DNA of 64,000 bases. Source: Candidatus Bathyarchaeota archaeon (GTDB lineage: Archaea; Thermoproteota; CALKCG01; B24). The DNA is taken from contig JAGTQM010000009.1 in assembly GCA_018396755.1 (NCBI GenBank), positions 1-64,000 on the forward strand, given 5' to 3'. The translations under genes were made by a program, and so were the position numbers. This document shows positions 5,954 through 25,489 of the stretch, in pieces (the stretch's first letter is position 1; every line of letters begins with the position of its first letter). A model generated the notes under the pieces. That model worked only from the letters and a program-made list of their open reading frames with translations. It had not been told where the DNA came from and ran no database searches.

Positions 5954-5968
5954 TATAACAGTGTTATA
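5954..5968. promoter_or_regulatory. Palindromic operator, site 1
   Basis: TATAACAGTGTTATA is a perfect inverted repeat with one central base. It lies 12 bp before the GTG of the SerK-like gene and inside the divergent SerK/SufS promoter region. It is one of about 16 related sites in the sulfur island. Confidence 0.8.
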
Positions 5969-5987
5969 TAAATGTTTGCATAAAATT

Positions 5988-6002
5988 TATAACGCTGTTT
6001 TA
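5988..6002. promoter_or_regulatory. Palindromic operator, site 2
   Basis: TATAACGCTGTTTTA is identical, base for base, to the site before LarE at 22879-22893. It lies 21 bp upstream of the SufS ATG and 20 bp from site 1, about two helical turns, which would allow cooperative binding. Confidence 0.75.
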
Positions 6003-6023
6003 AAAATCATGTAGTTGATTATC

Positions 6024-7238
6024 ATGTTAAACTCCAAGTCTATACGTAGAGATTTTCCAATACTATCCTTACGTAGGGAAGACGGTAAACCTTTAATCTA
6101 CTTAGATAACGCTGCTACAACTCTTAAACCACGTCAAGTTATAAGCGCCATAATTCGCTACTATGAGCGTTATACTGCTAATGTGCATAGAGGCTTGTAT
6201 AGGTTAGCCCAGGAAGCTACTTCCCTATACGAAAACGCCAGAGAGGCCGTTGCTAAGTTTATAAAAGCCGACTCTAGTGAAGTTGTTTTTACGAAAAATG
6301 CTACTGAAGGCGTTAATATTGTTGCTTATGGTTTAAACTGGGAGCCTGGAGATGAAGTGGTTACAACGGTTATGGAGCATCACTCAAATCTGGTACCTTG
6401 GCAAATTATACGTGATAAATTTAGAGTGAAGCTTAAATTTTTAGACATCACTGATGACGGCGATCTTAATGTAGAAGACCTTACGTCTCTTGTATCGAAA
6501 CATACTAAGTTGCTAGCTTTAAATCACGTGTCCAACGTACTTGGAACAGTAAATCCAGTTGAGAAACTTATTAAATTGGCTCATGAACATGAAGTCCCAG
6601 TTCTAATAGATGCCGCTCAGTCGGTTCCACACATTCCTATAGATGTGAGAAGGCTTAGGTGTGATTTTCTGGTTTTCAGCGGACATAAAATGCTCGGGCC
6701 TACAGGCATAGGCGTTCTCTACGTGAATAGAGATGCTTCAGATACTCTTCAACCGGCCTTTGGAGGAGGTGAAATGATAAGTAAAGTCGACTTAGAGAAG
6801 GCTGAGTGGAACGATATGCCGTGGCGTTTTGAGCCTGGTACGCCTAACGTCGCTGGAGCCGCGGGTCTCGCAGCAGCCGTTGAATACCTGGAGAAGATTG
6901 GGATGGATAATGTACGGAGGCATGAAATTCAATTAACGGATTTAGCCCTTAAAAGGCTCAGCGATTTAGAATCCGTAGTAGTTTATGGGCCTAAGAGAGC
7001 TGAGAATAGATGTGGACTCGTAGCCTTTAACGTTAAAGGTGTTAACAGCCATGATGTTGCACTTCTCTTAGACGAGCTTGAAAACATAGCCGTCAGATCA
7101 GGTCTCCATTGCGCTGAACCCCTGCATAGAAGACTTAAAGCACAGAGCTCAGTTAGAGCTTCTTTCTATATCTACAACATACTGGAGGAAGTAGAGATAC
7201 TTTGCAATACAGTAGAGAAGATAGCTGGACTATTGTAG
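6024..7238 (+). CDS. sufS: Cysteine desulfurase, SufS/CsdA type
   Basis: This PLP enzyme of 404 residues removes sulfur from cysteine as a protein persulfide for Fe-S and cofactor synthesis. The PLP lysine is in FSGHKMLGPTGIG and the catalytic cysteine in RSGLHCAEP, the class II (SufS) arrangement; VLIDAAQ and NHVSNVLGT are cofactor contacts. ATG 6024 (MLNSKSIRRDFPIL) fits the family N-terminus better than the TTG at 6015. It faces the SerK-like gene across two operator copies. That SerK and a desulfurase share a control region supports cysteine as a sulfur relay metabolite here. Confidence 0.93.
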   Translation: MLNSKSIRRDFPILSLRREDGKPLIYLDNAATTLKPRQVISAIIRYYERYTANVHRGLYRLAQEATSLYENAREAVAKFIKADSSEVVFTKNATEGVNIVAYGLNWEPGDEVVTTVMEHHSNLVPWQIIRDKFRVKLKFLDITDDGDLNVEDLTSLVSKHTKLLALNHVSNVLGTVNPVEKLIKLAHEHEVPVLIDAAQSVPHIPIDVRRLRCDFLVFSGHKMLGPTGIGVLYVNRDASDTLQPAFGGGEMISKVDLEKAEWNDMPWRFEPGTPNVAGAAGLAAAVEYLEKIGMDNVRRHEIQLTDLALKRLSDLESVVVYGPKRAENRCGLVAFNVKGVNSHDVALLLDELENIAVRSGLHCAEPLHRRLKAQSSVRASFYIYNILEEVEILCNTVEKIAGLL

Positions 7239-8024
7239 CTAGTCTTTCCTTTGGATATTGTTCTTTACGAGCTCGGCTACACGTTTGCCTGAAAGCAACA
7301 TGCCGCCAAATATAGGCCCCATCCTCGGTATTCTATGAAGGGTTGCAACAGCCATTCCAGCAACGTAAAGTCCTGGGCAAACTTCACCAGTTTTCTCTAC
7401 GACAAGTCTTTCACCCTCTGCTGTCCACATGGACGCTTCCCCAGGTAGAGTTATATTCACCCCTGGAACTTTCCTAGCGACTACTGAAAGAACCTCAGCC
7501 TCATGTCCAGTGCAGTCTATAACAGCTCTAGCTTTAAATGAAATCGGGTCTACGTGAAGAGCAGCTATTATGGTTGAACTCCATTGAACAACAACTCCGA
7601 CAATTTTAGGGGTATCATTTTCAAGTCTGAAAACTACATCATCTACCGATACTCCCAATAGTATTTCTGCACCAGCGTCTATAGCTGCGGCAGCAAGCTT
7701 AACAATCATTTCAGCTGGATCGACTATGTAAATACTATCATTAAACGGTTTAAGCCTACAGTTAAACTCTCTAAGTATGCTATCGGCGGGTTTTTGTACG
7801 AGTACAGCTGGAAGCTGCATCCCTCCACCACCCATCCCACCTCCGAAAGACAATTTTCTTTCTATGATAAGCGTGCTTAAACCGCTTTTGGCTAAGTAGG
7901 TCGCTGCCGTGAGACCTGCGGGTCCAGCACCTACAACTATGACATCCACCTCAGCCAATCTGGAAAACTTGTCAGCTGCCGCTTTAACTATAGCTTTAGT
8001 TATAATAGATTCATCTATGGTCAT
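7239..8024 (-). CDS. thi4: Thiamin thiazole synthase Thi4 (sulfide-using type)
   Basis: This 261-residue FAD/NAD-fold protein makes the ADP-thiazole precursor of thiamin from NAD, glycine and sulfur. The dinucleotide motif VIVVGAGPAGLTAA is at residues 28-41; GGGMGGGGM and the C-terminal GMAVATLHRIPRMGPIFGGM are family signatures. At the position where yeast Thi4 has its sacrificial cysteine (CMDP), this protein has His157 in ALHVDP, as in methanogen Thi4. That predicts a multi-turnover, sulfide-dependent enzyme. A variant operator (site 3) lies just upstream. Confidence 0.9.
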   Translation of the reverse strand: MTIDESIITKAIVKAAADKFSRLAEVDVIVVGAGPAGLTAATYLAKSGLSTLIIERKLSFGGGMGGGGMQLPAVLVQKPADSILREFNCRLKPFNDSIYIVDPAEMIVKLAAAAIDAGAEILLGVSVDDVVFRLENDTPKIVGVVVQWSSTIIAALHVDPISFKARAVIDCTGHEAEVLSVVARKVPGVNITLPGEASMWTAEGERLVVEKTGEVCPGLYVAGMAVATLHRIPRMGPIFGGMLLSGKRVAELVKNNIQRKD

Positions 8025-8033
8025 GCTGGTTAA

Positions 8034-8048
8034 TATTACAGCGTTAAG
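8034..8048. promoter_or_regulatory. Palindromic operator, site 3 (variant)
   Basis: TATTACAGCGTTAAG is a diverged copy; on the minus strand it reads CTTAACGCTGTAATA, close to sites 2 and 13. It lies 9 bp before the Thi4 start and within the divergent promoter shared with the small zinc-finger gene. Confidence 0.55.
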
Positions 8049-9025: not shown

Positions 9026-9040
9026 AATAACAATGTTATA
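9026..9040. promoter_or_regulatory. Palindromic operator, site 4
   Basis: AATAACAATGTTATA (one base from perfect symmetry) ends on the A of the ATG of the threonine-synthase-like gene. A TATA box (tttatatttt, 9008-9017) lies about 27 bp before the ATG, so the transcript is probably leaderless and the operator covers the start point. The sequence is identical to site 16 before IscS. Confidence 0.8.
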
Positions 9041-10272
9041 TGTATGCCTTAGCCCTTAAGTGTCGGAACTGTGGAGCTGAGTACGAGCTTGCACCCTTCT
9101 ATGTATGTAGAAAATGTCTAGGACCACTTGAAGTTAAATACTCCTATGAGGAGCTGAAACTTGATAAGAAGGAACTCACCAATAGGGTTAAAAGTATTTG
9201 GCGCTACAGAGAACTACTTCCAATAAATGAGCCTCTTAAATTCCTTCACATGGATGCTGGTTTCACGCCGCTTAGAAGAGCTATGCGATTGGCTGAAATC
9301 CTTGGTTTGAAGAAGCTCTATATTAAAGATGACACGGTAAATCCTACTGGATCCTTCAAAGATAGGCCAGCTTCGATAGCAGTATGCAAATCTATCGAGT
9401 TTGAGTTTAAAGCCGTGGGATGCGCTTCAACCGGTAATCTAGCGGCTGCAACAGCCTCCTATGCTGCTAAAGCCGGTATTCCATGTTATGTGTTTATCCC
9501 ATCGGATTTAGAAATGGGGAAGATCCTTCAGATAGCTTCCTACAACCCTGTAGTTATTGCAGTTAAAGACACATACGACATTGTCAATAGATTAGCTACA
9601 CAGATTTCAGAGCTACATAACATAGCGGTGGTTAACGTAAACTTAAGACCGTATTACGTAGAGGGTTCTAAAACACCGGCTTTTGAAGTCTGTGAGCAAC
9701 TTGAGTGGACTACGCCGGACTATTTCATAATACCTATGGGTAGCGGTGCCCTTTTATGTGCAATAAACAGAGGATTAAAAGAAATGGAAGTGTTAGACTT
9801 AATGAGGAATGACGTAAAGCTAGTTGGTGTTCAACCTGAAGGGTGTTCGCCCATAGTATCTGCCTTTAAAAAAGGAATGGATGACATAGTACCTATTGAA
9901 AAACCGAACACCATCGTTAAAAGTTTAGCTATAGGTGATCCTGCAGATGGAGCATATGCATTGAAAGCTTTAAGGGAAAGCGGAGGGTTCGCCGAAGCCG
10001 TTAACGATGAAGAGACTTTAGATGGTATGAGACTTTTAGCAAAAACTGAGGGTATTTTAACAGAGCCAGCAGGTGGGGTAGCAATAGCTTCTCTTAAAAA
10101 GCTTGTAGAGGATGGAAGTATACTTCCTAGTGAAACGGTCGTATGTTATATTACAGGTAGTGGTTTGAAAACATTGGAAGTTTTAGAAAGAGGAATCAAA
10201 CCTATAATTGTAGAGCCCGACTTAAATAGTATACTCGAATTATTGGGAGGGGGGAAGTATGGTGGTGGTTAA
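9040..10272 (+). CDS. Threonine synthase-like PLP enzyme
   Basis: This 410-residue fold-type II PLP enzyme resembles archaeal ThrC. It has an N-terminal zinc ribbon (CRNCG and CRKCLG, residues 8-23), the PLP lysine in NPTGSFKDRP (about residue 108), phosphate-binding SGALLC/GSGAL and the C-terminal TGSGLKT motif. ThrC makes threonine from O-phosphohomoserine. Unusually, it is controlled by the sulfur-island operator at its start codon and overlaps a ThiS-like carrier gene by 14 bp. A sulfur-transfer reaction on O-phosphohomoserine or a related phospho-amino acid is therefore an alternative to plain ThrC. Homology to the family is certain; the substrate is not. Confidence 0.8.
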   Translation: MYALALKCRNCGAEYELAPFYVCRKCLGPLEVKYSYEELKLDKKELTNRVKSIWRYRELLPINEPLKFLHMDAGFTPLRRAMRLAEILGLKKLYIKDDTVNPTGSFKDRPASIAVCKSIEFEFKAVGCASTGNLAAATASYAAKAGIPCYVFIPSDLEMGKILQIASYNPVVIAVKDTYDIVNRLATQISELHNIAVVNVNLRPYYVEGSKTPAFEVCEQLEWTTPDYFIIPMGSGALLCAINRGLKEMEVLDLMRNDVKLVGVQPEGCSPIVSAFKKGMDDIVPIEKPNTIVKSLAIGDPADGAYALKALRESGGFAEAVNDEETLDGMRLLAKTEGILTEPAGGVAIASLKKLVEDGSILPSETVVCYITGSGLKTLEVLERGIKPIIVEPDLNSILELLGGGKYGGG

Positions 10273-10534
10273 AGTTTTCATATCATCTACTTTACTGGAA
10301 GATGCTTCTAGTAAAAAGTTAAGTTTAGATGTTGAAACAGTTAATGATGTTCTGACGAGGCTTCTGGAAATAGTTGGAGATAAGTTCAGGGGTAAAATAT
10401 ATGAGGGGGAAGACCTAAGCCCTCGTATTGTTATATTGGTGAATAACAGAAATGTTAGATTTATGAATGGACTTAATACAAAGGTTAACGACGGTGACGT
10501 CATTGCACTTCTCCCAGCTATCGCAGGCGGCTAA
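10259..10534 (+). CDS. ThiS-like sulfur carrier
   Basis: This 91-residue beta-grasp protein ends LLPAIAGG, the diglycine end used for thiocarboxylate formation. It begins inside the last codons of the PLP enzyme gene, so the two are translationally coupled. It is a candidate for the CysO-like carrier of this locus, activated by the E1 at 15364. CysO in Mycobacterium donates thiocarboxylate sulfur to a phosphoserine-dependent synthase; here the nearest gene partner is the ThrC-like protein. The 240 bp downstream (10535-10775) contain no gene I can support. Confidence 0.8.
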   Translation: MVVVKVFISSTLLEDASSKKLSLDVETVNDVLTRLLEIVGDKFRGKIYEGEDLSPRIVILVNNRNVRFMNGLNTKVNDGDVIALLPAIAGG

Positions 10535-11044: not shown

Positions 11045-11059
11045 TATGACATTGTTATA
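11045..11059. promoter_or_regulatory. Palindromic operator, site 5
   Basis: TATGACATTGTTATA differs from the perfect palindrome at one position. It lies 24 bp upstream of the small membrane protein on the minus strand and about 215 bp upstream of the ThiI paralogue on the plus strand. Confidence 0.7.
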
Positions 11060-11274: not shown

Positions 11275-12501
11275 ATGAAGTTGCTAAAGCTACGTCTTCC
11301 TAACTTTGAAGTACATTCTGAACAGAAGTTGATGAGCTTGTGGAATGGGATTCTAGTGGAGTATGATGGAGGAGCCTTCACCACAAACTATATTTCGAAA
11401 CTAATTTCCAACATTAAATCTGGACTTAAAGAAGCTAATGTAGAGGCAAAGATAGTTCAAAGCGATTCTAAGTTATTTATCGAAACGACTCAAATAAAAG
11501 AAGCGTTAAGTATTACTCAACGGGTTTTTGGTGTAACTCGCACGATGCCTTACATACGTACAGAGCTGAGAAGAGTACACGATACTCTACCGTCAGTATC
11601 GGAGAGGTTTTTAAAGCAAGGGTTTTTTCCTATGGTTAAAGTTAGATCTATAGATTCCAAGAGTATATCCATGCAAGAGATGGCTCAAGCTTTCGATTTG
11701 GGAAAGACCCCTAATCTAAAAGATGAATCTATGAAAACCATCGATGTAAGTGTAGAAGTGGTGGGAGATGTATGCCATTTATATGCAGATCATTTAGCTG
11801 TAGTTGGACCAGGGGGCTTACCCATAGGAGCCGGGGATAGAGTGATCTGTTTAGTTTCAGGGGGAATAGATTCACCTGTGGCAACTTGGATGATGATGAG
11901 GAGGGGATGCCCTGTTGCCATTTTATTCGCATACTTCCCCATGGGAGGAGATGAATCCGACCTTAAACGCTTCATAAGTGTCGTTAGAGAACTGCGCAAA
12001 TGGCATATTGGGGAGGAAATGCAAGTCTACGTATACAAACACGATCAAAACCTCGTTGTTTTTAGGAAGACGGCATTAAGGTTTACATGTATCCTATGCA
12101 GACGGATGATGTATAGAGTTGCAAATGAATTCGCCAACATTGTAAAAGCAAAAGCAATAGTCACAGGTGAAAACCTCGCTCAAGTGGCTTCGCAGACGTT
12201 ACAGAATTTAAGCGTCATAAATCAAGCGTCTAAACTACCAGTTTTAAGACCTTTAATAGGCCTTGATAAGGAGGAAATCGTTAAAATAGCTAAGCATATA
12301 GGTACTTATGAAGCCAGCTGTATAAGGGTTTCTTCAGGTTGCACACCCATCAAGGGCTGTTGGGCTAGACCCCCAAAGCCAGTTACATATGCCTCACTCG
12401 ACACAATCATTAAGATAGAATCTAGTCTAAATATTAGAGAACTGCTTGAACGTAGCGTAGATAGTTTAAGAAAGTTTCCAGATGAATGGTTTACTTCTTA
12501 A
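11275..12501 (+). CDS. ThiI paralogue (THUMP + PP-loop sulfurtransferase)
   Basis: This 408-residue protein has an N-terminal ferredoxin-like and THUMP region (about 1-180) and a PP-loop ATPase domain with LVSGGIDSPVATW (about 193-205). The cysteines FTCILC and a later GCW correspond to the three Cys that bind an Fe-S cluster in methanogen ThiI. ThiI makes 4-thiouridine in tRNA. The N-terminus diverges from the canonical copy at 49247, which keeps the YGELALKSK motif. A specialised role, for example thiolation of another RNA or sulfur delivery to a carrier, is possible. No rhodanese domain is present. Confidence 0.82.
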   Translation: MKLLKLRLPNFEVHSEQKLMSLWNGILVEYDGGAFTTNYISKLISNIKSGLKEANVEAKIVQSDSKLFIETTQIKEALSITQRVFGVTRTMPYIRTELRRVHDTLPSVSERFLKQGFFPMVKVRSIDSKSISMQEMAQAFDLGKTPNLKDESMKTIDVSVEVVGDVCHLYADHLAVVGPGGLPIGAGDRVICLVSGGIDSPVATWMMMRRGCPVAILFAYFPMGGDESDLKRFISVVRELRKWHIGEEMQVYVYKHDQNLVVFRKTALRFTCILCRRMMYRVANEFANIVKAKAIVTGENLAQVASQTLQNLSVINQASKLPVLRPLIGLDKEEIVKIAKHIGTYEASCIRVSSGCTPIKGCWARPPKPVTYASLDTIIKIESSLNIRELLERSVDSLRKFPDEWFTS

Positions 12502-13748: not shown

Positions 13749-14894
13749 TTACACCGTCTTTAAAGCTTTAACTGGATCTATTTTGGATGCCCTCCATGCA
13801 GGGTAAAAACTTGCAATTAGACAAGATGAAATTGATAAAGTGATAGTTAACGGGACAATATAAATAGGTACGTCTTCTAGATTTATTGTAGCTCCCATTA
13901 TAAGAGGCCCCAATGACATGGATGATATTAAACCTGTTACGATGCCAACAAATCCACTGATTAAACCCAAAATTACGGATTCTAAGAAAAATATTTTATA
14001 CAGATGACTACTATCAGCCCCCAGTGAAATAAGCACTCCGATCTCTCTTATTCGCTCATGGATGGAGGCTAACATTGTATTCATGATTCCGATGCAACCA
14101 GTTATGAGAATAGTAAAAGCTAGTAAAAGTGAAAAGTTAACCGTCTGTTTAACGATTTTCGCCCTTAATTCAACCGCTTGCTTAATAGGTGTCGCTTTAA
14201 CATTAGGCATAACCTCCATTATCTGCTGCGCAATAACTTCAACTGGACAGTCTTTGCAAAGAGCCCCGACTTCAATTACGTGGACTTTATTGGTGAGGTT
14301 AAGCAGCATCTGAGCCGTGTGTAGTGGCAAGAATACGGAATAGTCATCAATAGACCCTGTTTCACTCAAAAAGCCAACTACGGTGAGGGATATGTTATTG
14401 ATTTGAGCAATTGAGCCTAGAGTTAAACCAAGTGTTGACTTTATGGTTGAACCTAGAATTATTTCAAATTCACCTCGAGGTAATGAGCCGGTTATATTCC
14501 ACCATCTTTTAAGTTGGATTTCACTCTCTGGAATTATTCCAACGAGGAGAAGATTGTTACCTCTATATTGTACTTGACCGTAAACCTTCGGAGATATCAC
14601 CCTAATATTTTGCCTGTTTGGAATTGTATAGATCTTCTCTACGTAATTTTCTGGAATTACAACATCTCCTACAACAATGCCTCCATATGGTATGTTTATT
14701 AACTGTGCTTTAGGAGTTATCACTATATTTGGCCCATACTTTTCCACTTCATCGCCGATCTGTATTTCCATAGAATGGGAAACGACAAACGTTGAAGTGA
14801 TTATGGTGATGGCAAGGATCAATCCTATAGAGTTAAGAATCGAACGCCCTTTTCTTCTCGAAAGACTCTTGAAAACTAGAGTTGCTGTCCGCAC
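13749..14894 (-). CDS. FtsX/MacB-family ABC permease
   Basis: This 381-residue permease has one N-terminal membrane helix (about 20-40), a large extracellular MacB-like domain (about 45-255) and three C-terminal helices, ending with ASFYPAWRASKIDPVKAL, the family terminus. It is the first gene of the operon with the ATPase and DUF2318-like protein. Operator site 6 lies 33 bp upstream of the start. Similar permeases accompany DUF2318 in iron or copper uptake loci; no substrate can be read from sequence. Confidence 0.85.
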   Translation of the reverse strand: MRTATLVFKSLSRRKGRSILNSIGLILAITIITSTFVVSHSMEIQIGDEVEKYGPNIVITPKAQLINIPYGGIVVGDVVIPENYVEKIYTIPNRQNIRVISPKVYGQVQYRGNNLLLVGIIPESEIQLKRWWNITGSLPRGEFEIILGSTIKSTLGLTLGSIAQINNISLTVVGFLSETGSIDDYSVFLPLHTAQMLLNLTNKVHVIEVGALCKDCPVEVIAQQIMEVMPNVKATPIKQAVELRAKIVKQTVNFSLLLAFTILITGCIGIMNTMLASIHERIREIGVLISLGADSSHLYKIFFLESVILGLISGFVGIVTGLISSMSLGPLIMGATINLEDVPIYIVPLTITLSISSCLIASFYPAWRASKIDPVKALKTV

Positions 14895-16419: not shown

Positions 16420-17320
16420 AAGACAAAATCTCTCCAGCTATGGTAATAGCTATCTTCCTCTGAGCCTCTAAAGTGCTTCCTCCAATATGAGGAGTTAATA
16501 TGACGTTGTCAAGCTTCAGCAAAGGGCTGTTTGATGGAGGCTCCTCCGTAAAAACATCTAGTGCTGCACCCCCCAGCCATCTCGAAGATAAAGCTATGTA
16601 AAGGGCTTTTTCGTCTACAACAGCTCCTCTACTAGTGTTTACCAAGTATGCACCCCTCTTCATCAAAGAAAGTTCTTCGGACTTTATCATATTCCTCGTT
16701 TCATCTGTCAGCGGCACATGAATAGATACGAAATCGCTCATCTTCAGAAGCTTACTTAAATCATCTACAAGCTCTACTCCTATCTGTTCGGCCTTAGTTT
16801 TAGGAATGTATGGATCGTAAGCAATTATCTGCATACCAAACGTCTTGGCCATTACGGCGACCCTGACCCCTATCCGCCCAAGCCCAATAATGCCTAAAAC
16901 TTTCCCTTTCAACTCTACACCCGTAGTCCAAGTCCCCCTCCACCCGCCGGATTTCACGTGACGATCCAATGAAGGTATTTTCCTTGCCAAGCTTATGATC
17001 AACCCTATAGTAAGCTCTGCGACTGAATCTACTGGGGCATCTGGAGCATTTATCACTTTTATGCCTTTTTGCTCAGCATGAACAATATCGATGTTATCTA
17101 AGCCACTTCCAGCTCTCGCTATGAACCTTAATCTCGGCGCCTGATCAATGATTTCTCGCGTAACTTTAACATCGCCTCGGACTACTAGTATGTCTGCATT
17201 TTTAATTTCCTCGGTTAACTTCTCAGACAATATTTCTTTAAGCTCTGCATAAGGTTTTAAAATTTCGTAAAATTCTTCATCCACACCGCCAACTATGAGG
17301 ACGATAGGTTTTTCCATCAC
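16382..17320 (-). CDS. serA: D-3-phosphoglycerate dehydrogenase (short form)
   Basis: This 312-residue NAD-dependent 2-hydroxyacid dehydrogenase opens phosphoserine/serine synthesis from 3-phosphoglycerate. Catalytic Arg, Glu and His are seen in ARAGSGLDNID, FTEEPP and LTPHIGGST; the NAD motif is GIIGLGRIGVRVA. It lacks the C-terminal ACT regulatory domain, so serine feedback is unlikely. Start is GTG 17320 or ATG 17317, just below operator site 8. It is divergent from the cysteine synthase fusion, so precursor and cysteine synthesis are controlled from one 74-bp region. Confidence 0.88.
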   Translation of the reverse strand: MMEKPIVLIVGGVDEEFYEILKPYAELKEILSEKLTEEIKNADILVVRGDVKVTREIIDQAPRLRFIARAGSGLDNIDIVHAEQKGIKVINAPDAPVDSVAELTIGLIISLARKIPSLDRHVKSGGWRGTWTTGVELKGKVLGIIGLGRIGVRVAVMAKTFGMQIIAYDPYIPKTKAEQIGVELVDDLSKLLKMSDFVSIHVPLTDETRNMIKSEELSLMKRGAYLVNTSRGAVVDEKALYIALSSRWLGGAALDVFTEEPPSNSPLLKLDNVILTPHIGGSTLEAQRKIAITIAGEILSFIRENWTELYTE

Positions 17321-17323
17321 TAT

Positions 17324-17338
17324 TATAACGACGTTATA
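17324..17338. promoter_or_regulatory. Palindromic operator, site 8
   Basis: TATAACGACGTTATA is a perfect palindrome, identical to site 15 before NadA. It lies 3 bp from the GTG start of SerA on the minus strand. Confidence 0.82.
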
Positions 17339-17382: not shown

Positions 17383-17397
17383 TATAACACTGTTATG
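17383..17397. promoter_or_regulatory. Palindromic operator, site 9
   Basis: TATAACACTGTTATG includes the ATG start of the cysteine synthase fusion as its last three bases. A TATA box (tttttaagg, about 17362-17370) lies 25-30 bp upstream, as expected for a leaderless gene whose start point is covered by a repressor. Confidence 0.82.
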
Positions 17398-18714
17398 ACA
17401 AACATTCAGACTACATACGTAGGTGTGAACGAAGTAAAACAGCCAGTGAACGTCGATTTAAGAGAAGCAATTCCTGTATATAGGCGGATTCTTAATGAGA
17501 AAAGCGTAAGAGAACTTATTGTAGTTGAAAAGACGACTATGGTTGTTTTAAGAGGACATGGGGTTTTAGAAGCTCTGAGATTGCTTTCAGCTGATAAAGT
17601 TCCAGTGTTTCAAGTTGATTCGTCTAAAGTTAAAGTGAAAAGTCTGCAACCAGGTTTAAGACCTATAACGTTAGAGGCTGTCATTAAAGCTGGAGTTGAA
17701 GGCCCAAGGCTTCCGTATAAGAGCTTCGACGTTCAGATTGAAGAGGAGATTCCCAGCATAGAAGTAGATTTAAATGAGTTGAATGTTTGGAAGAGGGTAG
17801 GAGGAAGACGACTTAGAGTATATGATAGTACTATGGAGTTACTCTATGAAGACTGGCCGACGCCTCTAGTTAAACTACGGTTCTTCTCCTCAGAGGATAG
17901 GAGCGTTTGGGCTAAGCTTGAAGGAGCTAATCCATACAGTAACAGCGTTAAAGATAGAATAGGGTGGTCTATGATTATGAGTGCTCTTGAAGAGGGGAAA
18001 CTGGGCGATATATTGTATGAAGCTACTTCAACTAATACTGGAATAGCCATAACAGCTATAGCAAACCTCCTAGGGAGGAAGACAAGACTGTTTATACCAA
18101 AAACCATTCAGAAGGCTAGCGACGTTTTTCTTAAGGTTCTGGGAGCAGATGTTGTAAGAGTACCTGTAGGTTTGACCGTGGAAGCTATAGAAGAAGTTGA
18201 TGCCAAGTCTAAATCCGAGGGGGCTACTCACTTAAATCAGTTTGAGAATGATGCGAATTTCAAAGTACATCTGAAGTATACAGCTAAGGAGATAGATGAG
18301 CAACTTGAAAGCCGTGGGCTTAAACCAGACTGCATCGTAGGAGGCTTAGGAACCTCAGGACATATGAGCGCTATATCCATTTACTTCAAAAGTAAATACG
18401 GAGGTTCTGTGAAAATAGTAGGCGTTCAACCTGCTCCCAATGAGGTGATTCCTGGAATACGTAGAATTGAAACAGGTATGAAATGGATTCACTGGGTAGA
18501 TTTTGACCAAGTTATAGACGTTAAAAGGAATGAGGCTATAGAAGGTGCTTTAACCGTCGCTAGAAAAGAGGGGCTCTTAATAGGCTTAAGTGCTGGAGCA
18601 GTTTTCCACGCATTCACTAAGATCGCTGAAGACGGGGGGGTTTATGTCTTGGTATTTCCAGACACTGGCTACAAATATGTAGAACAATTTGAAGAATACT
18701 TTCATAGTGTGTAA
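17395..18714 (+). CDS. ParB/SerK-like domain fused to cysteine (O-phosphoserine) synthase
   Basis: In this 439-residue protein, residues 1-135 resemble a ParB/SerK fold; where SerK has DGHHRVKAL, this has RGHGVLEALRLL, so the phosphate motif is degraded. Residues 140-439 are a cysteine synthase: PLP lysine in NSVKDRIGW, substrate loop ATSTNTGIAIT, phosphate cup GGLGTSGH and SAGAVFHA. The TSTNTG loop resembles archaeal O-phosphoserine sulfhydrylase. Clustering with SerA, SerK, E1 and a JAMM peptidase favours phosphoserine as acceptor and either sulfide or a carrier thiocarboxylate as donor. The N-terminal domain may channel or sense phosphoserine. Confidence 0.82.
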   Translation: MTNIQTTYVGVNEVKQPVNVDLREAIPVYRRILNEKSVRELIVVEKTTMVVLRGHGVLEALRLLSADKVPVFQVDSSKVKVKSLQPGLRPITLEAVIKAGVEGPRLPYKSFDVQIEEEIPSIEVDLNELNVWKRVGGRRLRVYDSTMELLYEDWPTPLVKLRFFSSEDRSVWAKLEGANPYSNSVKDRIGWSMIMSALEEGKLGDILYEATSTNTGIAITAIANLLGRKTRLFIPKTIQKASDVFLKVLGADVVRVPVGLTVEAIEEVDAKSKSEGATHLNQFENDANFKVHLKYTAKEIDEQLESRGLKPDCIVGGLGTSGHMSAISIYFKSKYGGSVKIVGVQPAPNEVIPGIRRIETGMKWIHWVDFDQVIDVKRNEAIEGALTVARKEGLLIGLSAGAVFHAFTKIAEDGGVYVLVFPDTGYKYVEQFEEYFHSV

Positions 18715-18724
18715 CAATGTTAAA
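18710..18724. promoter_or_regulatory. Palindromic operator-like match, site 10 (weak)
   Basis: TGTAACAATGTTAAA spans the stop of the cysteine synthase and the ATG of the JAMM gene. The core TAACAATGTTA fits the consensus, but the two genes are only 2 bp apart and there is no clear TATA box. It may be an internal site or chance. Confidence 0.35.
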
Positions 18725-19157
18725 GATCGCTAAAGCCGTTTTTAAACAGTTGGTAGAAGCGTGTAAAGAGGAGTTCCCCAGAGAAGCTTGTGGGCTTATA
18801 GCTGGAGTCAAAGGGAATGAGGATTCATTCGCTATAAAGATCTATCCTTTAAGAAACATAGCTAAATCGTCATTCACCTATGAGACAGATGCGGAAGAAG
18901 TGTATAATGCTTTCATCAACATAGAAGAAACTGGATTAAGTATCCTAGGTGTATATCATAGCCATCCATTTAGCCAAGCTGAGCCATCTGAATTGGATAG
19001 GAGAAACGCTTTCTACCCAGGCATGATACACGTGATCGTTTCACTCATAGGAGATGTTGCTGACGTTAAAGCCTACTTATGGAGCGGGGAGGAGTTCACC
19101 GAATACCCCATCTCTATAGAGGAAGAACAGGCGAAGCTAGTACAAAGTTTTATATAA
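18717..19157 (+). CDS. JAMM/Mov34 metallopeptidase, Mec-like
   Basis: This 146-residue zinc peptidase has the full JAMM motif: glutamate in PREACGLIAG, then YHSHPFSQAEPSELDRR with the two histidines, serine and aspartate. In Mycobacterium, Mec cleaves cysteine from the CysO C-terminus; other archaeal JAMM proteins deconjugate SAMPs. The gene starts 2 bp after the cysteine synthase fusion, the same pairing as CysM with Mec. Release of cysteine (or another adduct) from a ThiS-like carrier is therefore the leading hypothesis. Intact motif and short length fit the single-domain class. Confidence 0.88.
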   Translation: MLKIAKAVFKQLVEACKEEFPREACGLIAGVKGNEDSFAIKIYPLRNIAKSSFTYETDAEEVYNAFINIEETGLSILGVYHSHPFSQAEPSELDRRNAFYPGMIHVIVSLIGDVADVKAYLWSGEEFTEYPISIEEEQAKLVQSFI

Positions 19158-19167
19158 CTGAGTAATA
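19153..19167. promoter_or_regulatory. Palindromic operator, site 11 (regulator promoter)
   Basis: TATAACTGAGTAATA keeps the TATAAC half and six of seven symmetric pairs, with a different centre. It lies 19 bp before the ATG of the HTH regulator, partly within the end of the JAMM gene, and would allow autoregulation. Confidence 0.55.
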
Positions 19168-19186: not shown

Positions 19187-19522
19187 ATGCATTTAAAACC
19201 TCCATGTGAATTATCCGTTAAATTTATCCTACCAGCCATAAGACTTCTCATAGCTAAAAAACTCATAGAAAAATACAACTTCACTCAAACTTCAGCTGCT
19301 AAAGCTCTAGGTACTACACAGGCTGCTATAAGCCATTATATGCACTCGAAACGCGGATGGAGGCTTGCTGAGAGGTTGATGAAGATGGAGGATGTTAGAG
19401 AGTTTATAGAAAAATCTGCAGAGAAAATCGCTACGTCTGAAATACATAACGTAGATGTTTTAGACGTATGTCAACTTTGCAAAATAACTCAGAAGTATGT
19501 AAGTGAATTTGAAAAATCATAA
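19187..19522 (+). CDS. HTH transcriptional regulator with CxxC, candidate sulfur-island repressor
   Basis: This 111-residue protein has an XRE-like helix-turn-helix at about 25-65 (FTQTSAAKALGTTQAAISHY) and a C-terminal segment with DVCQLCKIT, a CxxC suited to bind Fe-S, zinc or act as a thiol switch. It resembles small archaeal regulators grouped as COG2522. It lies in the middle of the operator-bearing genes, 29 bp after the JAMM gene, and has its own operator copy (site 11). It is the only regulator I find in the island, so it is the best candidate for binding the palindrome. This link is inferred. Confidence 0.78.
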   Translation: MHLKPPCELSVKFILPAIRLLIAKKLIEKYNFTQTSAAKALGTTQAAISHYMHSKRGWRLAERLMKMEDVREFIEKSAEKIATSEIHNVDVLDVCQLCKITQKYVSEFEKS

Positions 19523-19537: not shown

Positions 19538-19936
19538 TTAAAAAACTACGAGTGATATAGCTCTCATTGGACATGCATCTACGCATAAACCGCAAGCTAC
19601 ACATTTATCTTCATCAAAGATTATAGAGTAATCACCGGACATTTTAATCACATCAACTGGACAAAGAGACAGACATTCACCACAATGTATGCATCTATCT
19701 AAATCAACAGATATTGTCCTTTTAATTACGATTTCAACCCCTTTACTTTTAAAAGCTTCAATTACATTCTCTGCAAAAACATCTGGTATTTCTACGAGCA
19801 TTTCCCCACCTTTCTCGTGAATAGAAGCCTTTAAAATGTTTAATTTAACCCCTTTCTCAAGTATTACAGTTGAAGTTATGGGTTCATTCATAAGTCCGCC
19901 GTGGAACCTTAATAATACTTTAACCATATCTATCAC
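19538..19936 (-). CDS. NIL-domain ferredoxin of homocysteine synthesis
   Basis: This 132-residue protein has an N-terminal NIL domain (about 5-75) and two 4Fe-4S motifs (CIHCGECLSLCP and CVACGLCVDACP). It matches the methanogen MA1822 type, which with the DUF39 protein forms homocysteine from aspartate semialdehyde and sulfide, providing reduction or sulfur mobilisation. It follows the HcyBio gene by 2 bp, so they are one operon under site 12. Its end faces the regulator gene convergently. Confidence 0.88.
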   Translation of the reverse strand: MIDMVKVLLRFHGGLMNEPITSTVILEKGVKLNILKASIHEKGGEMLVEIPDVFAENVIEAFKSKGVEIVIKRTISVDLDRCIHCGECLSLCPVDVIKMSGDYSIIFDEDKCVACGLCVDACPMRAISLVVF

Positions 19937-19938
19937 CT

Positions 19939-21120
19939 TTAAACAATCCTTTTCATAATAGCTTTTTCTTTCATAGGTTTAAATACCGAGCCTCTAGGCA
20001 AGTTTTCAACAGGCTTAGATAAGTAGAAGAACCCCTCTTCAATCCATTTCTTCAAGGTTTCAGCTACTTCTATAGCTCCTTTAAGACTTGATAATGAGCT
20101 GACTTTCACAGTTTTCCCCAGTATTTCTACTTTCCCAGATTTAAGTTCTCTATAAGAGACTTCTCTTAGAATTGGTCTAGTCCTTCTTGGAATACCATAA
20201 TCTAATATTTTAACGGTTATCTGCTCATCTGTTACTGCAGCGCTTTTAGCGATTTTTAAGTTCAGTATAGGCATTGGTATACCTAGACCGACATAAATAG
20301 ATGTCCCATAACGGGTAATGGCAGCCCCTCTAACAAATTTGGGATCCATATCCATACAGTTTCCTTTGACCATTAAAGTTCCCATTTGATTCCCCGGATC
20401 ATGTTGAGTACCTTCACCTATGACATAGCCTTTTGCTCCCCCTAGAAATATCCTAGTTCCAATACCTATCGTTTCGTAGTCAGGGTCGTTCATTAATGGG
20501 TTTAATTCACCAGCTCCTGAGAAAGTAGCATTACCGTAATGCGGTAATAGTTTACCCATGTAAGTATATATTGTGACATCCCTGCTATTAGTTGCGCAAA
20601 CGTACTTCTGGTAAGCATTTCTAAAATTCAACATGTAAAATTGATTTAAATCATACTTAGTCAATGTAGTTTCAAGCCTAGTCCTAGGGTAACAGTCTGT
20701 TCCATAAGCCGTAGCCTTCAACTCAACTTCTTTTCCGCTTATCAAGTCTTCTATAACGTGGCCTCCCCCGTATTCGAATGGTTTGACTTCAGACATCTGA
20801 GTAGCACCTATGTATAGGTCCACTGCTGCTCCCGGGTGGCAAACAGAGACGTCATTAATCCATGCTTTATCTATCTTAATAGGTGGGTCTGAATGACCTA
20901 AATTTATCACAGCACCAGAAGAGCACATAGCCCCAAAGGTTCCCGTTGTTACAACGTCAACTTCTTTGGCAACTGCTTCAACACCTTTATCTTTGACTAG
21001 GCGTTTAAATTCATCAGCCCTTAGAACTACGACATCTCCCTTTCTAATCTTCTCATTTATTTCTTCGTATGTCCTTATGGGTTTCTCCAACTCATAATTA
21101 CTTGTCAAGGTTTTCACCAA
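19939..21120 (-). CDS. Homocysteine biosynthesis protein HcyBio (DUF39)
   Basis: This 393-residue DUF39 protein is the aspartate-semialdehyde sulfurtransferase of the MA1821 type. The conserved cysteine is in GAMCSSGAVINLGHSDPP (about residues 63-80), and ATAYGTDCYPR and GTQHDPGNQMGT are family motifs. Unlike some homologues it has no CBS domains. Start is TTG 21120 or GTG 21117. Operator site 12 overlaps the start. It is operonic with the NIL-ferredoxin and provides the methionine/homocysteine branch of the sulfur island. Confidence 0.9.
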   Translation of the reverse strand: MVKTLTSNYELEKPIRTYEEINEKIRKGDVVVLRADEFKRLVKDKGVEAVAKEVDVVTTGTFGAMCSSGAVINLGHSDPPIKIDKAWINDVSVCHPGAAVDLYIGATQMSEVKPFEYGGGHVIEDLISGKEVELKATAYGTDCYPRTRLETTLTKYDLNQFYMLNFRNAYQKYVCATNSRDVTIYTYMGKLLPHYGNATFSGAGELNPLMNDPDYETIGIGTRIFLGGAKGYVIGEGTQHDPGNQMGTLMVKGNCMDMDPKFVRGAAITRYGTSIYVGLGIPMPILNLKIAKSAAVTDEQITVKILDYGIPRRTRPILREVSYRELKSGKVEILGKTVKVSSLSSLKGAIEVAETLKKWIEEGFFYLSKPVENLPRGSVFKPMKEKAIMKRIV

Positions 21121-21132
21121 AACAGTGTTATA
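21118..21132. promoter_or_regulatory. Palindromic operator, site 12
   Basis: CAAAACAGTGTTATA keeps the strong GTGTTATA half. It overlaps the start codon of HcyBio on the minus strand, with AT-rich TATA candidates (about 21138-21150) upstream. Confidence 0.65.
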
Positions 21133-21195: not shown

Positions 21196-21981
21196 TTAAG
21201 TTAATGTTAGCCTCTCAGGATGAGTGTATATGTTGCATCTAGACCCCCTCATAAACCCTATAAGTGTTACTCCCAATTGTGTAGCTAACGATACTCCAAG
21301 AGATGTTGGAGCAGATATCGAGGCAAGTATCGGTATGCCTACTCTAGCGACTTTTAAAACGATCTCAGATGAAAGCCTCCCGCTACATACCAAGAGCGTA
21401 TGGTTAAAGTACGGGGATTCCCTTAGAGCATAGGCTCCAACAGCCTTATCCACGGCATTATGCCGTCCTACGTCTTCACATAAAATTTTCATCCCCATAG
21501 TATCAGCGATAAGTGCCGCATGAACTCCTCCAGTCCTCCTATATAAGGATGCATCTAAGTTGAGTTTCCCTACGAGTTTAAAAATTTCGTTAAGAGGCCA
21601 TTGAATGTTTGATTGCACTCTCTTAGCTGGAAGATTTTCAACGAGTTCTTCTGAAGAATGCCCACACATGGTTTTAACTGTATCGATTACCTTAGCGTTA
21701 TGTAACTTTATTCTTTCCTCAACCGTTGTCGAAGCCTCTATATGAGCTTCGCTATCCTTCACATCTATCCTGATTACTTCTTCTAGATTTTTTATAAATC
21801 CCTCAGTTATAAGATGACCTATGGCTAATTCCACAAGTTCTTGAGGGGTTACGTAAAGTACTCTTAATCGTTTTCCATTAATGTAAATGGCTATTGGTGT
21901 CTCTACGGCTACTTCATCCTTAACTTCATCTATACGTCCATGTATGAACCTTGAAATAGCGTATTTGACTGATACCTTCAT
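21196..21981 (-). CDS. fdhD: FdhD-family sulfur transfer protein
   Basis: This 261-residue FdhD/NarQ protein moves sulfur from a desulfurase to the Mo/W-bis-pterin cofactor of formate dehydrogenase. The sulfur-carrying motif is TMCGHSSEE with one cysteine, whereas E. coli has CxxC. GVHAALI, CEDVGRHNAVDKAVG and SGRLSSEIV are family signatures. It follows LarE by 15 bp, forming an operon under site 13. No formate dehydrogenase is in the window, so the client may be elsewhere or may be the AOR-type enzyme. Confidence 0.9.
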   Translation of the reverse strand: MKVSVKYAISRFIHGRIDEVKDEVAVETPIAIYINGKRLRVLYVTPQELVELAIGHLITEGFIKNLEEVIRIDVKDSEAHIEASTTVEERIKLHNAKVIDTVKTMCGHSSEELVENLPAKRVQSNIQWPLNEIFKLVGKLNLDASLYRRTGGVHAALIADTMGMKILCEDVGRHNAVDKAVGAYALRESPYFNHTLLVCSGRLSSEIVLKVARVGIPILASISAPTSLGVSLATQLGVTLIGFMRGSRCNIYTHPERLTLT

Positions 21982-21996
21982 AATCTCTCCGACTTA

Positions 21997-22869
21997 TCAT
22001 GGTTTATCTTTTCTAAAAACAGTTTCGTTAAGGCTTCCGGATTTATATCCGTAAAGATCTAAAGTCACGTATATATATCCTAGACTTCTAAGTTTACTCC
22101 AAATACTATTCATGACATTCTCATCGAAAAAGACTTTTCTCTCATCTCTACCGACTTCGATTCTAGCGATATAGCCATGGTCTCTAACTCGAACTTGTCT
22201 AACTCCAGTAAGTTGTCTTATATAAGTTTCTGCTTCCGAAATTCTTCTAAGTCTTTCGTAGGTTACTTCTACACCATATGGAATTCTTGAAGCTAAACAA
22301 GCCATAGAAGGCTTATCTGCCGTAGGAAGCCCTACGATTTTCGAAATCAACCGTACATCACTTTTAGTGAGACCTACTTCAGCTAGCGGACTTCTCACTC
22401 CAAATTCCTTTAAAGCTTTGAGACCAGGTCTAAAATCTCGATGGTCGTCAGCATTAGAGCCGTCAACTATCACTTTTAAACCCTCTTCTTCGGCTATTTT
22501 ACTCAACACCTTTAACAGAGACCTTTTGCAGTAGTAGCATCTATCTGGAGGATTCTTAACAAACTCGCCATCGCTTAATTCATCGACTTTAACTATTCTA
22601 TGTTTAATCCCTATGAAACGTGCAATTTTAATAGCGTCTTCAAGTTCACCCGGTGGAAGAGTTAGCGAATCCGCTGTAACGGCTAAACTCTTATCATCTA
22701 AAGCTTTGTAAGTAACATATGCCACAAGAGTGCTATCAACTCCACCAGAGAAAGCGACCAACACGCTATTCTTATCATTGAACCAATTTATGAGCTTCTC
22801 CAATAGAGCTTGAGCCTTTAAGACGGATTCATTTTTACATTCTAAGTGTTTAGGCTTTCCAGTCATCAC
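21997..22869 (-). CDS. larE: LarE-like ATP-dependent sulfur transferase (PP-loop)
   Basis: This 290-residue PP-loop protein has VAFSGGVDSTLVAY near residue 40, a CYYCKRSL motif and MACLASRIPYG, which holds the cysteine used as sacrificial sulfur donor, or cluster ligand, in LarE. LarE makes the nickel-pincer cofactor of lactate racemase, but no larB/larC genes are here. It is operonic with FdhD under the sulfur operator, so a more general sulfur-insertion role is plausible. Start is GTG 22869 or ATG 22866. Confidence 0.85.
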   Translation of the reverse strand: MMTGKPKHLECKNESVLKAQALLEKLINWFNDKNSVLVAFSGGVDSTLVAYVTYKALDDKSLAVTADSLTLPPGELEDAIKIARFIGIKHRIVKVDELSDGEFVKNPPDRCYYCKRSLLKVLSKIAEEEGLKVIVDGSNADDHRDFRPGLKALKEFGVRSPLAEVGLTKSDVRLISKIVGLPTADKPSMACLASRIPYGVEVTYERLRRISEAETYIRQLTGVRQVRVRDHGYIARIEVGRDERKVFFDENVMNSIWSKLRSLGYIYVTLDLYGYKSGSLNETVFRKDKP

Positions 22870-22878: not shown

Positions 22879-22893
22879 TATAACGCTGTTTTA
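22879..22893. promoter_or_regulatory. Palindromic operator, site 13
   Basis: TATAACGCTGTTTTA is identical to site 2. It lies 9 bp before the LarE GTG start and 65 bp before the divergent CobW gene. Confidence 0.75.
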
Positions 22894-22957: not shown

Positions 22958-24082
22958 ATGGTTTCAGTATTCATGAAGCCTAAATTGGTCCTTATTGGAG
23001 GCTTTCTAGGAAGTGGAAAGACAACACTACTACTCAGACTAGGCGAGGCGCTGACGAATGAGCATGGAAAACGAGTGGTCATGATAACGAATGACCAGGG
23101 AGAAGTTTTAGTGGATAGTGTTATAGCTAAAGACTACGGTTTTGAAACAGCGGAGATCATCAGAGGATGCTTCTGTTGCAACTTTCAAATTTTCATTAAA
23201 CACGCTCAGAAGATTTTAGAGGAGCTAAGGCCAGATGTTATTCTCGCAGAACCAGTTGGAAGCTGTAGCGGTCTGATGCCAACACTCTACAGGCCTATAC
23301 AGGAATTCTACTCTGGTGAATTCAAACTCGCTCCGTTAATAATCATGGTAGATGCATCTAGACTTCTTAAACTTCACCAGGAGATAAACCTTTTAGATGC
23401 TGGAGACCCTATAGCCTATCTCATAGCGTCGCAGATAAAAGAGGGGGAGATAATGTGTATAAATAAAGTAGACTTGGTGGACGATTCAACCATTATGGAC
23501 ACCCTTAGTCTTTTGAGAAGAATGAGACCTGAAGCTGAGTTTGTACTGACGTCAGCTAAATTCAACGTTGGAGTTGATAAAGTAGTAGACGTGATTCTTA
23601 AAGGTGTTTCTAGAAGACTACCATACCCTGATGTAGATATGATCAAGTATACAGAGGCTGAGCTTGAACTCGCATGGTTCGATGGACTTTACGAAGTTAA
23701 ATCGGAGGGAAGTTTTAACCCGATGGATTTCATTAAAGAAGTTTTAGAAGACGTTGTTGGGCAAATAGCAAGTCATAATGGATTTATCGCCCATGTAAAA
23801 GCATATCTGAGAACACCCAATAGGGCATTTAAAGCCAGCGTCACCTCAACAGATTCCAACGTTGATATAGGTGGGCCTGAAAGCGTTGAACACACCAACT
23901 CTGGGGTATTGTTGGTAAACGCTAGAGTCAAACTCAGCCCTGAGAAACTGAGCGAAATAGTAAACATCGCATTAGAAAAAAAGGCTTTAAAGTACAATGT
24001 TACTCTTCCCAAGATTAGAGCTGAGGCTTACAGACCTAAACCTCCTAAGCCTCAGTTCTATATCCCATATTCTAGAGGCTAG
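22958..24082 (+). CDS. CobW/COG0523 metallochaperone GTPase
   Basis: This 374-residue G3E GTPase has Walker A GGFLGSGKTTLLL (about 13-25), a CFCCN metal motif (the family CxCC, about 71-75), a Mg-binding aspartate region and NKVD specificity motif. A C-terminal CobW domain is followed by a proline-rich tail (RPKPPKPQ). Family members insert or traffic zinc, cobalt, iron or nickel. It is divergent from LarE and followed by a ThiS-like gene. Either ATG 22958 or 22973 may be the start. Confidence 0.82.
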   Translation: MVSVFMKPKLVLIGGFLGSGKTTLLLRLGEALTNEHGKRVVMITNDQGEVLVDSVIAKDYGFETAEIIRGCFCCNFQIFIKHAQKILEELRPDVILAEPVGSCSGLMPTLYRPIQEFYSGEFKLAPLIIMVDASRLLKLHQEINLLDAGDPIAYLIASQIKEGEIMCINKVDLVDDSTIMDTLSLLRRMRPEAEFVLTSAKFNVGVDKVVDVILKGVSRRLPYPDVDMIKYTEAELELAWFDGLYEVKSEGSFNPMDFIKEVLEDVVGQIASHNGFIAHVKAYLRTPNRAFKASVTSTDSNVDIGGPESVEHTNSGVLLVNARVKLSPEKLSEIVNIALEKKALKYNVTLPKIRAEAYRPKPPKPQFYIPYSRG

Positions 24083-24114: not shown

Positions 24115-24129
24115 AATAACAGTGTTAAG
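24115..24129. promoter_or_regulatory. Palindromic operator, site 14
   Basis: AATAACAGTGTTAAG has the conserved TAACAGTGTTA core. It lies 15 bp before the ThiS-like gene; a TATA-like ttaaataa at 24112-24119 overlaps its left half. Confidence 0.65.
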
Positions 24130-24143: not shown

Positions 24144-24413
24144 GTGATGAGAGTTCTATTTAAGTTCTACGGAAACCTCGTGAACTACTTTGGAGAGAGA
24201 GCAAGCATAGAACTCAACGAGGGAGTTACGGTTCAAGAGGCACTTATGAAGCTTAAACTCATAGATGGAACTCCAGCATATGCAAGTATTTTCATAAACA
24301 CTCACCTACAAATGCTTGTAGTGTTCGTATCAGGCAAACATGCGAACTTAAACACTAAGTTGAGCGGGGAAAGCGTAGAAGTTACGGTTCTTCCACCAAT
24401 AATGGGTGGTTAA
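24144..24413 (+). CDS. ThiS/MoaD-like sulfur carrier
   Basis: This 89-residue beta-grasp carrier ends TVLPPIMGG, ready for adenylation and thiocarboxylate formation. The N-terminal strand is MRVLFKFYGNLVNYFGERASIEL. Start is GTG 24144 or ATG 24147. It has its own operator and sits between the CobW GTPase and NadA. It is the second carrier in the regulon, after 10259. Which of them serves thiamin, cysteine or molybdopterin cannot be told from sequence. Confidence 0.82.
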   Translation: MMRVLFKFYGNLVNYFGERASIELNEGVTVQEALMKLKLIDGTPAYASIFINTHLQMLVVFVSGKHANLNTKLSGESVEVTVLPPIMGG

Positions 24414-24462
24414 GCAACGTTTTCCAAGGAGAAAAACTTATAAGCTATTTATAGAGGTGAAA

Positions 24463-24477
24463 TATAACGACGTTATA
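24463..24477. promoter_or_regulatory. Palindromic operator, site 15
   Basis: TATAACGACGTTATA, perfect and identical to site 8. It lies 16 bp before the NadA ATG, and a purine-rich ribosome-binding site (gagggggagg, 24481-24490) follows directly, so this mRNA has a short leader. Confidence 0.82.
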
Positions 24478-24493
24478 TCAGAGGGGGAGGCTT

Positions 24494-25420
24494 ATGGAAG
24501 TCTCTCGGCTTCAGAGAAAGGTCATTCAGTTAAAGGAGAAAGAAAAAGCATTAATTTTAGCTCATAACTATCAGCGTCCGGAAATACAGGAAATAGCTGA
24601 TTTTGTAGGTGACTCGCTACAACTGTGTTTCGCAGCAATTAGAGCTGAGGATGCTAAATACATAGTTTTTTGTGGTGTCGATTTCATGGCGGAAACGGCG
24701 TCTATCTTAAACCCAGATAAGCCAGTTGTAATCCCGGATGTTGAAGCCAAATGTCCCATGGTTGCTCAGCTACCAGCAAAAAAGGTAGTAGAGGCAAAAA
24801 AGAAGTATCCAGATGCTGAAGTCATGCTGTATATAAATACGTTGGCTGAAGCTAAAGCAGAGGCGGATGTAATATGCACTTCTTCAAATGCTTTTAGAAT
24901 CGCTAGCAAGCTTGATTCTACTAAGGTTCTCTTTGGCCCAGATCGGAACTTAGCATGGTATACCGCTAAACGTTGCTCCAATAAGGAAATCATTCCAATC
25001 CCAGAAAATGGCTATTGCATCGTACATAAACTGTTTCAAGTAGAAGATATTCTTCTTCTTAAGAAGAGCCATCCGGACGCAGAAGTATTGGTGCATCCCG
25101 AGTGCGACCCCGAAGTTCAGCAAATAGCAGACTTCATCGGAAGCACAGAGCAAATGCGTAGAAGATGTTTCGAATCCCATTCAAAGAAATTCATTATAAC
25201 GACTGAAATAGGTCTCATTGATCGCTTGAAAAGAGAACTTCCTGGAAAAGAGTATATTCCAGCGTTTGAAGGAGCTATATGTTATAATATGAAACGTCAT
25301 ACGCTTGAAAAAGTCTACCATGCTCTTGAGTCGAAGAAAACAGTTGTTAAAGTTCCGGAGGACATTGCTAAGAAAGCTAGATTGGCAATAGAAAGGATGA
25401 TGGGGCTTTCTAAGCAGTAG
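24494..25420 (+). CDS. nadA: Quinolinate synthase NadA
   Basis: This 308-residue [4Fe-4S] enzyme condenses iminoaspartate with dihydroxyacetone phosphate to form quinolinate for NAD. The start ILAHNYQRPEIQEIADFVGDS is family-typical, and cluster cysteines appear in FCGVDFMAETA, ICTSSNAF/HPECDP and GAICYNMKRHTLEKVYHAL. It is under a perfect operator copy. No NadB or NadC is adjacent. Its inclusion in the regulon may reflect its labile cluster, or the NAD demand of Thi4, which consumes NAD. Confidence 0.95.
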   Translation: MEVSRLQRKVIQLKEKEKALILAHNYQRPEIQEIADFVGDSLQLCFAAIRAEDAKYIVFCGVDFMAETASILNPDKPVVIPDVEAKCPMVAQLPAKKVVEAKKKYPDAEVMLYINTLAEAKAEADVICTSSNAFRIASKLDSTKVLFGPDRNLAWYTAKRCSNKEIIPIPENGYCIVHKLFQVEDILLLKKSHPDAEVLVHPECDPEVQQIADFIGSTEQMRRRCFESHSKKFIITTEIGLIDRLKRELPGKEYIPAFEGAICYNMKRHTLEKVYHALESKKTVVKVPEDIAKKARLAIERMMGLSKQ

Positions 25421-25474
25421 GATTTTAACGTGCTTTCACGCTTTGACATTCTCTCAGATTTTAAAAAACCTTTA

Positions 25475-25489
25475 AATAACAATGTTATA
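25475..25489. promoter_or_regulatory. Palindromic operator, site 16
   Basis: AATAACAATGTTATA is identical to site 4. It lies 23 bp before the IscS ATG, overlapping the TATA-like tttaaata at 25471-25478. Confidence 0.78.

Follow-up and report, generated by a model that had tools for sequence, protein, structure and literature searches.

The window analysed here, a stretch of 64,000 nucleotides from the start of contig JAGTQM010000009.1, is part of the genome of a Bathyarchaeia-type archaeon (1.98 Mb in 74 contigs). Between 5.9 and 25.5 kb it carries a block of genes that make up a coherent cysteine-to-cofactor sulfur pathway. In this block, 16 sites conform to a 15-bp palindrome with the refined form TATAAC-RNY-GTTATA, here referred to as the operator. 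A 111-amino-acid helix-turn-helix (HTH) protein encoded in the same block is the candidate regulator. Starts of open reading frames (ORFs) were called mechanically, and gene products were assigned from profile matches unless stated otherwise. Relatives are cited by the labels of the census set described below (L, loci; G, genomes; f, families).

Gene content and operator sites of the block

The left end of the block is formed by a divergent pair, a SerK/ParB-like gene (173 amino acids, 5420–5941, reverse strand) and a SufS-type cysteine desulfurase gene (6015–7238, forward). Two operators lie between them, an exact one at 5954–5968 and a second at 5988–6002, and identical copies of both are found in the same genus (L073:6706, at the same place, and L073:6737). 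The weak operator of Thi4 (7239–8024, reverse) is located at 8034–8048 (matrix score 12.7) and is conserved at L072:12604. The site at 9026–9040 covers the start codon of a ThrC-like pyridoxal phosphate enzyme (9040–10272, forward), next to a MoaD/SAMP1-like carrier (10259–10534, forward); in L166, a site lies 11 bp from the start of a ThrC-like homologue of 59% identity. An 81-amino-acid protein, CDVC, is preceded by the operator at 11045–11059 (counterpart L072:11517), and ThiI is encoded at 11275–12501 (forward). The export operon of an FtsX/LolCE-like permease (13749–14894, reverse), with a LolD-like ATPase behind it, has its site at 14927–14941, with a counterpart between SufS and FtsX at L072:15165. 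Over the start codon of the E1/ThiF-like activating enzyme (15364–16419, forward) lies the site at 15350–15364, beside which an extra, weaker 17th copy was found at 15333; E1 sites are also present in L111 and L173.

In the right half, SerA (16382–17320, reverse) and a cysteine synthase with an N-terminal SerK/ParB-like domain (17395–18714, forward) have operators at 17324–17338 and 17383–17397, the latter over the cysteine synthase start codon and conserved in G001–G003. A JAB-domain protease-like gene (18717–19157, forward) has a site on its start (18710–18724), found by palindrome match and matrix scan. The HTH gene (19187–19522, forward) has a site 27 bp upstream, at 19153–19167, for which autoregulation is proposed. 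The operator at 21118–21132 lies on the start of HcyBio, encoded with a NIL-ferredoxin (19538–21120, reverse), and that at 22879–22893 between a divergent pair, FdhD and a LarE-like sulfur transferase (21196–22869, reverse) on one side and a CobW-type GTPase (22958–24082, forward) on the other. The last three sites precede a ThiS/MoaD-like carrier recognised from its sequence and GG C-terminus (24144–24413, forward; site 24115–24129), NadA (24494–25420, forward; site 24463–24477) and the IscS–NifU operon (25513–27229, forward; site 25475–25489). Compared with the gene assignments in an earlier note on this DNA, two points differ, as 18710 belongs to the JAB-domain gene, which starts at 18717, and the sites at 5954 and 5988 both serve the divergent SerK/SufS pair.

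The same note had listed 16 coordinates, and the palindrome or a variant of it is present at every one, with 0–4 mismatches to TATAACAnTGTTATA. Site 5954 matches perfectly; one mismatch is found at 9026, 11045, 14927, 17383 and 25475, two at 5988, 15350, 17324, 18710, 21118, 22879 and 24463, three at 19153 and 24115, and four at 8034, the weakest of those listed. The identical copies were also correctly recognised (5988 and 22879, 17324 and 24463, 9026 and 25475). The palindrome proposed there is real; its consensus is better described as TATAACRNYGTTATA, because the positions flanking the centre are A/G and T/C. AAC and GTT are almost invariant in a matrix built from 15 sites. This matrix returned 16 sites with scores of at least 12.5 at 5.9–25.6 kb, whereas 200 Markov shuffles gave 0.26 on average and never more than 2; a start codon is found 0–40 bp away at all 16. 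The remaining matches above 10.8 in the window (4210, 4840, 17938, 39557, 39757, 41486, 52984 and 59945) all fall within ORFs. Thus, the statement that no copies exist at 0–5.9 and 25.5–64 kb holds for promoters.

Across the whole genome, 18 sites have at most one mismatch to the refined consensus, versus one for the reversed control, and at least 10 of the 18 fall in the 19.5-kb block. Equal density elsewhere in the genome, which had been named as a refuting outcome, was not seen; matches beyond the window are mostly intragenic. Outside the window, a DUF438-hemerythrin gene also has a promoter site (G000 contig 19:9850), centred 13 bp from its start, which matches the hemerythrin targets seen in other genomes (see below). 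No DrsE_2 gene was found in the genome.

As judged from sequence, the block is flanked by tungstate-transport/AOR-type genes and CopA. Positions 1–5115 of the window encode a tungstate/molybdate-type ATP-binding cassette (ABC) transporter, a MoaD-like protein and an AOR-family oxidoreductase, whose starts carry no operator sites. The N-terminal domain of the cysteine synthase is 27% identical to the SerK-like protein (E 7e-8), with LDGHHR replaced by LRGHG, and represents a fused, probably non-catalytic serine-kinase-like domain.

Conservation in close relatives

Loss of the motif at orthologous promoters in close relatives was the second check, and the sites are kept in the same genus, the same family and the same order. 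Within the genus, this applies to the promoters of SerK, SufS, LarE/CobW, HcyBio, SerA, CysK, HTH, CDVC, FtsX and Thi4. In two genomes of the same family, sites persist at LarE and CysK and where HcyBio is located, and in G004, of the same order, at SufS and SerA as well as near IscS. As coding identity at the family level is about 66–75%, retention of the sites is not a matter of simple sequence closeness. One relative of the same genus, G001, contains two versions of the cluster (L072, L074), about 91% and about 65–87% identical, the second with several broken reading frames. This version is either a decaying duplicate or the product of a mixed bin.

Distribution across the phylum

Exact copies of TATAACRNYGTTATA were counted in 121 genomes, with the reversed sequence as control. 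The relatives are metagenome-assembled genomes (MAGs) and incomplete, and shared ancestry makes all p-values indicative. The census gave 64 sites versus 10 for the control. Fifty-seven of the 64 are outside the family of the window, distributed over 33 of 117 related genomes; only five of these 57 are intragenic, and 44 have a gene start at −40 to +180 bp. Pfam annotation of the 57 downstream proteins yielded DrsE_2 (7), PALP (5), hemerythrin (5) and FTR1 (3), compared to one FTR1 and at most one each of the others among 57 neighbouring control proteins (20 vs. 4, Fisher p = 2e-4).

The targets comprise SufB (L200) and, at sites with one mismatch, SufC (L203, L194), and near-exact copies front IscS/SufS operons in related genomes. 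DsrE/TusA genes (TusA at L223), a rhodanese (L202), sulfite reductase (L166, L240), MetY (L159, L120), CysK (L161, L135, L209), NifB (L116, L130), HcyBio (L239) and FTR1 (L166, L174, L201, L080) are fronted by sites as well. The sulfur/cysteine/Fe–S regulon that had been proposed from the window alone is thereby supported, since distant families also carry sites at sulfur, Fe–S and iron genes. Its label fits best as “sulfur/Fe–S”; “cysteine” is less apt because iron genes (FTR1, hemerythrin) and NadA are also among the targets.

Two further groups of targets should be mentioned. In f29 genomes (L237, L238) an exact operator is found 20 bp ahead of PhnD-like ABC binding proteins, which may, as a guess, import a sulfur compound rather than a phosphonate. 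Cons_hypoth698 (YeiH-like) membrane proteins with tandem operators (L170 and L165, in G044 and G051) are candidate sulfur transporters. The operator could also serve as a tool to find sulfur-related roles for the CDVC protein, the FtsX/LolD operon, the JAB protein, DUF438-hemerythrins and the YeiH-like transporters.

That the palindrome is a promoter oddity, a repeat or an RNA element instead of a protein-binding site is scarcely plausible in view of these data. The left arm is TATA-box-like and the DNA AT-rich, as such an explanation would have it, but conservation across families extends to both arms and the 3-bp centre, with variable spacing to the TATA box and start, the reversed control lacks such enrichment, and no Rfam match was obtained.

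Promoter geometry

Two arrangements recur in the window and in distant genomes. In the first, the TATA box includes the left arm (tttaTATAAC) and the start codon follows 20–50 bp downstream; in the second, the TATA box is found 15–25 bp upstream and the operator covers the transcription start site or the start codon. The start-codon geometry of a repressor, inferred earlier, is therefore present, albeit as one of two, as the left arm overlaps the TATA box at many promoters. Both geometries predict blocking of TBP/TFB or the polymerase. We consider it likely that a transcription repressor uses the palindrome as its operator, and that this repressor is the 111-amino-acid HTH protein (19187–19522).

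An activator or dual regulator appears rather improbable by comparison. Several promoters have no obvious TATA box or a start codon 40–50 bp away, and SurR is known to work both ways by position, repressing from sites downstream of TATA and activating from sites upstream (PMC12162507). Still, most sites overlap the TATA box or the start region, and no listed site clearly lies upstream of a promoter's sole TATA box.

In the proposed repressor mechanism, a dimer of the HTH protein would bind the half-sites TATAAC and GTTATA across the 3-bp centre. Sitting on either the TATA box or the start of transcription/translation, it would block TBP/TFB or RNA polymerase. Repression would prevail when sulfur or Fe–S clusters are adequate, and would extend to cysteine synthesis, the sulfur relay, Fe–S assembly and the HTH gene itself. 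A shortage of cysteine, sulfide, iron or Fe–S cluster would release the repressor, perhaps read via three invariant cysteines; we infer this signal from the nature of the target genes.

The HTH protein as candidate regulator

Apart from the protein at 19187–19522, no HTH-type DNA-binding protein was recognised in the block. This protein matches HTH_3, and no Rrf2 domain was detected by Pfam or NCBIfam. The 25 homologues compared all share C7, E8, P16, R19, Q34, A38, Y51, R56, C95 and C98, and differ little in the recognition-helix region TQAAIS, in keeping with the almost unchanged operator. An AlphaFold2 model (predicted local distance difference test, pLDDT, 84) comprises six helices; the sequence has no match in the PDB, and the model no Foldseek match below E 0.001.

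In other families the gene is found within SufS–IscS–NifU operons (L118, L119) and, in a Thermoprotei MAG (L070), in a CysK–HTH–SufS–IscS–NifU operon with four operators upstream. Elsewhere it adjoins E1 (L111, L117, L126), IscS (L114), SufS (L121) or Thi4/SufS (L081, L082). An operator with a score of at least 8 lies within 60 bp 5′ of the start in 16 of 25 HTH genes versus 9 of 281 other genes (3.2%, p = 2e-18), and the latter nine include plausible targets (NifB twice, MetY and a hemerythrin-like gene). Exact sites are present in 16 of 27 genomes with a close HTH homologue versus 9 of 50 (Fisher p = 3e-4, kinship ignored), and seven genomes without the HTH protein have none.

A number of observations weigh against this assignment or against the regulon as drawn. 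Nine of the 25 HTH genes have no clear upstream site, and the site of the HTH gene in the window is itself weak, with three mismatches. The correlation between HTH protein and operator across genomes is moderate (Spearman 0.35, ignoring phylogeny and base composition). No site was found at the SufB/SufC operon of the source genome, and for some genes behind exact sites a sulfur connection is not evident (argininosuccinate synthase/ABC, PhnD-like, a peptidase). The three cysteines are also present in a ThiN-fused homologue and, as ThiR-type proteins keep them, may constitute a structural metal site rather than a sensor.

Some genomes with only distant HTH homologues nevertheless carry exact sites. 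This would be expected if a genuine sulfur/Fe–S operator were bound by a regulator encoded elsewhere, e.g. of the Rrf2, DtxR or ArsR type or a 247-amino-acid HTH paralogue. In f15 (L234, L235, L201) an exact site separates this paralogue from a divergent FTR1 or PhnD-like gene, which makes it a possible second regulator on the same site. Such a regulator does not seem likely to us as the main one, given that the 111-amino-acid protein is the only one of its kind recognised in the cluster, is linked to Fe–S operons elsewhere and, in most genomes, is preceded by an operator of its own at a spacing that hardly varies. Control by the SerK/ParB-like protein (5420–5941), whose relative SbnI is annotated as a DNA-binding regulator, is highly improbable. 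Its gene adjoins the only perfect site, and the protein itself weakly matches the SbnI “bifunctional transcriptional regulator” model, but the match is limited to the ParB/SerK catalytic region, no HTH was found, and SerK was not seen beside distant operator-bearing Fe–S operons.

Variant palindromes were also observed. TGTAACGGCGTTACG and TGTAACGCCGTTACG (L117:8564, L126:8363) occur near HTH proteins with the recognition helix TRPAIS, and co-variation with the changed helix is possible, on too few cases. The variant TGTAACRNYGTTACA, considered as co-variation with the changed recognition helix of f11, was set aside, as the two suggestive sites by hemerythrin/HTH loci are too few.

Comparison with known systems

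The block shows the features of a regulon under a palindromic-operator HTH repressor: a shared palindrome at promoters of linked genes, conservation at orthologous promoters, and a linked candidate regulator with its own operator. The closest named relative of the HTH protein is ThiR, the thiamin regulator of archaea (Rodionov et al. 2017 J Bacteriol 199:e00743-16, as cited in PMC10746257). Its DNA-binding half is homologous to the window protein, which shares 38% identity over 97 residues, covering PPCE, the HTH and the CxxC cysteines, with a ThiN-fused protein of the ThiR type from the genome of a relative. A homologue of 323 amino acids joins HTH to ThiN as ThiR does and has the PCE and CxxC cysteines too; the window protein is thus a stand-alone version of the ThiR DNA-binding half. 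Unlike ThiR, it has 111 amino acids and no match to the ThiN ligand domain, and the targets are cysteine, sulfur-relay, Fe–S and iron genes; Thi4, whose site is weak, is the only gene of thiazole synthesis among them. No clear palindrome was seen in two ThiR/ThiN-type promoters inspected.

SurR of Thermococcales is similar in being a cysteine-bearing HTH protein with a sulfur-linked archaeal regulon, sites at its own promoter and repression from sites downstream of TATA (PMC12162507). Conversely, its operator is GTTn3AAC, as opposed to AACn3GTT in the window; it is an ArsR-type winged HTH protein with an N-terminal CxxC, whereas the window protein is of HTH_3/Cro type with a C-terminal CxxC at 95–98; and it controls hydrogen/S0 energy genes rather than assimilation and Fe–S assembly. 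Control of cysteine and Fe–S supply in archaea outside Thermococcales is poorly known. No described regulon of the present kind was found in the open-access papers searched, and a published description may exist elsewhere. A single 15-bp operator that predicts sulfur/Fe–S genes across the phylum, combined with a small candidate regulator, turns the matter into a directly testable question.

In bacteria, IscR and SufR are autoregulated repressors of isc/suf genes with a possible cysteine-ligated sensor, and the logic proposed here is alike in these respects. Neither family was matched by the window protein, the operator differs, and cysteine synthesis, sulfur carriers and iron genes are joined under one operator. 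Regulons of the CymR/CmbR type exert global control of cysteine and sulfur genes in bacteria; their protein families and operators are unrelated, and the window has archaeal basal promoters. It is an evenly balanced prospect that a stand-alone PCE–HTH–CxxC family, unnamed in the libraries and papers searched, runs an ancient regulon across much of Thermoproteota through one nearly unchanged operator. Joining cysteine synthesis, sulfur relay, Fe–S assembly and iron uptake, and possibly sensing by a metal or Fe–S site of the three invariant cysteines, it would be the archaeal counterpart of IscR plus CymR.

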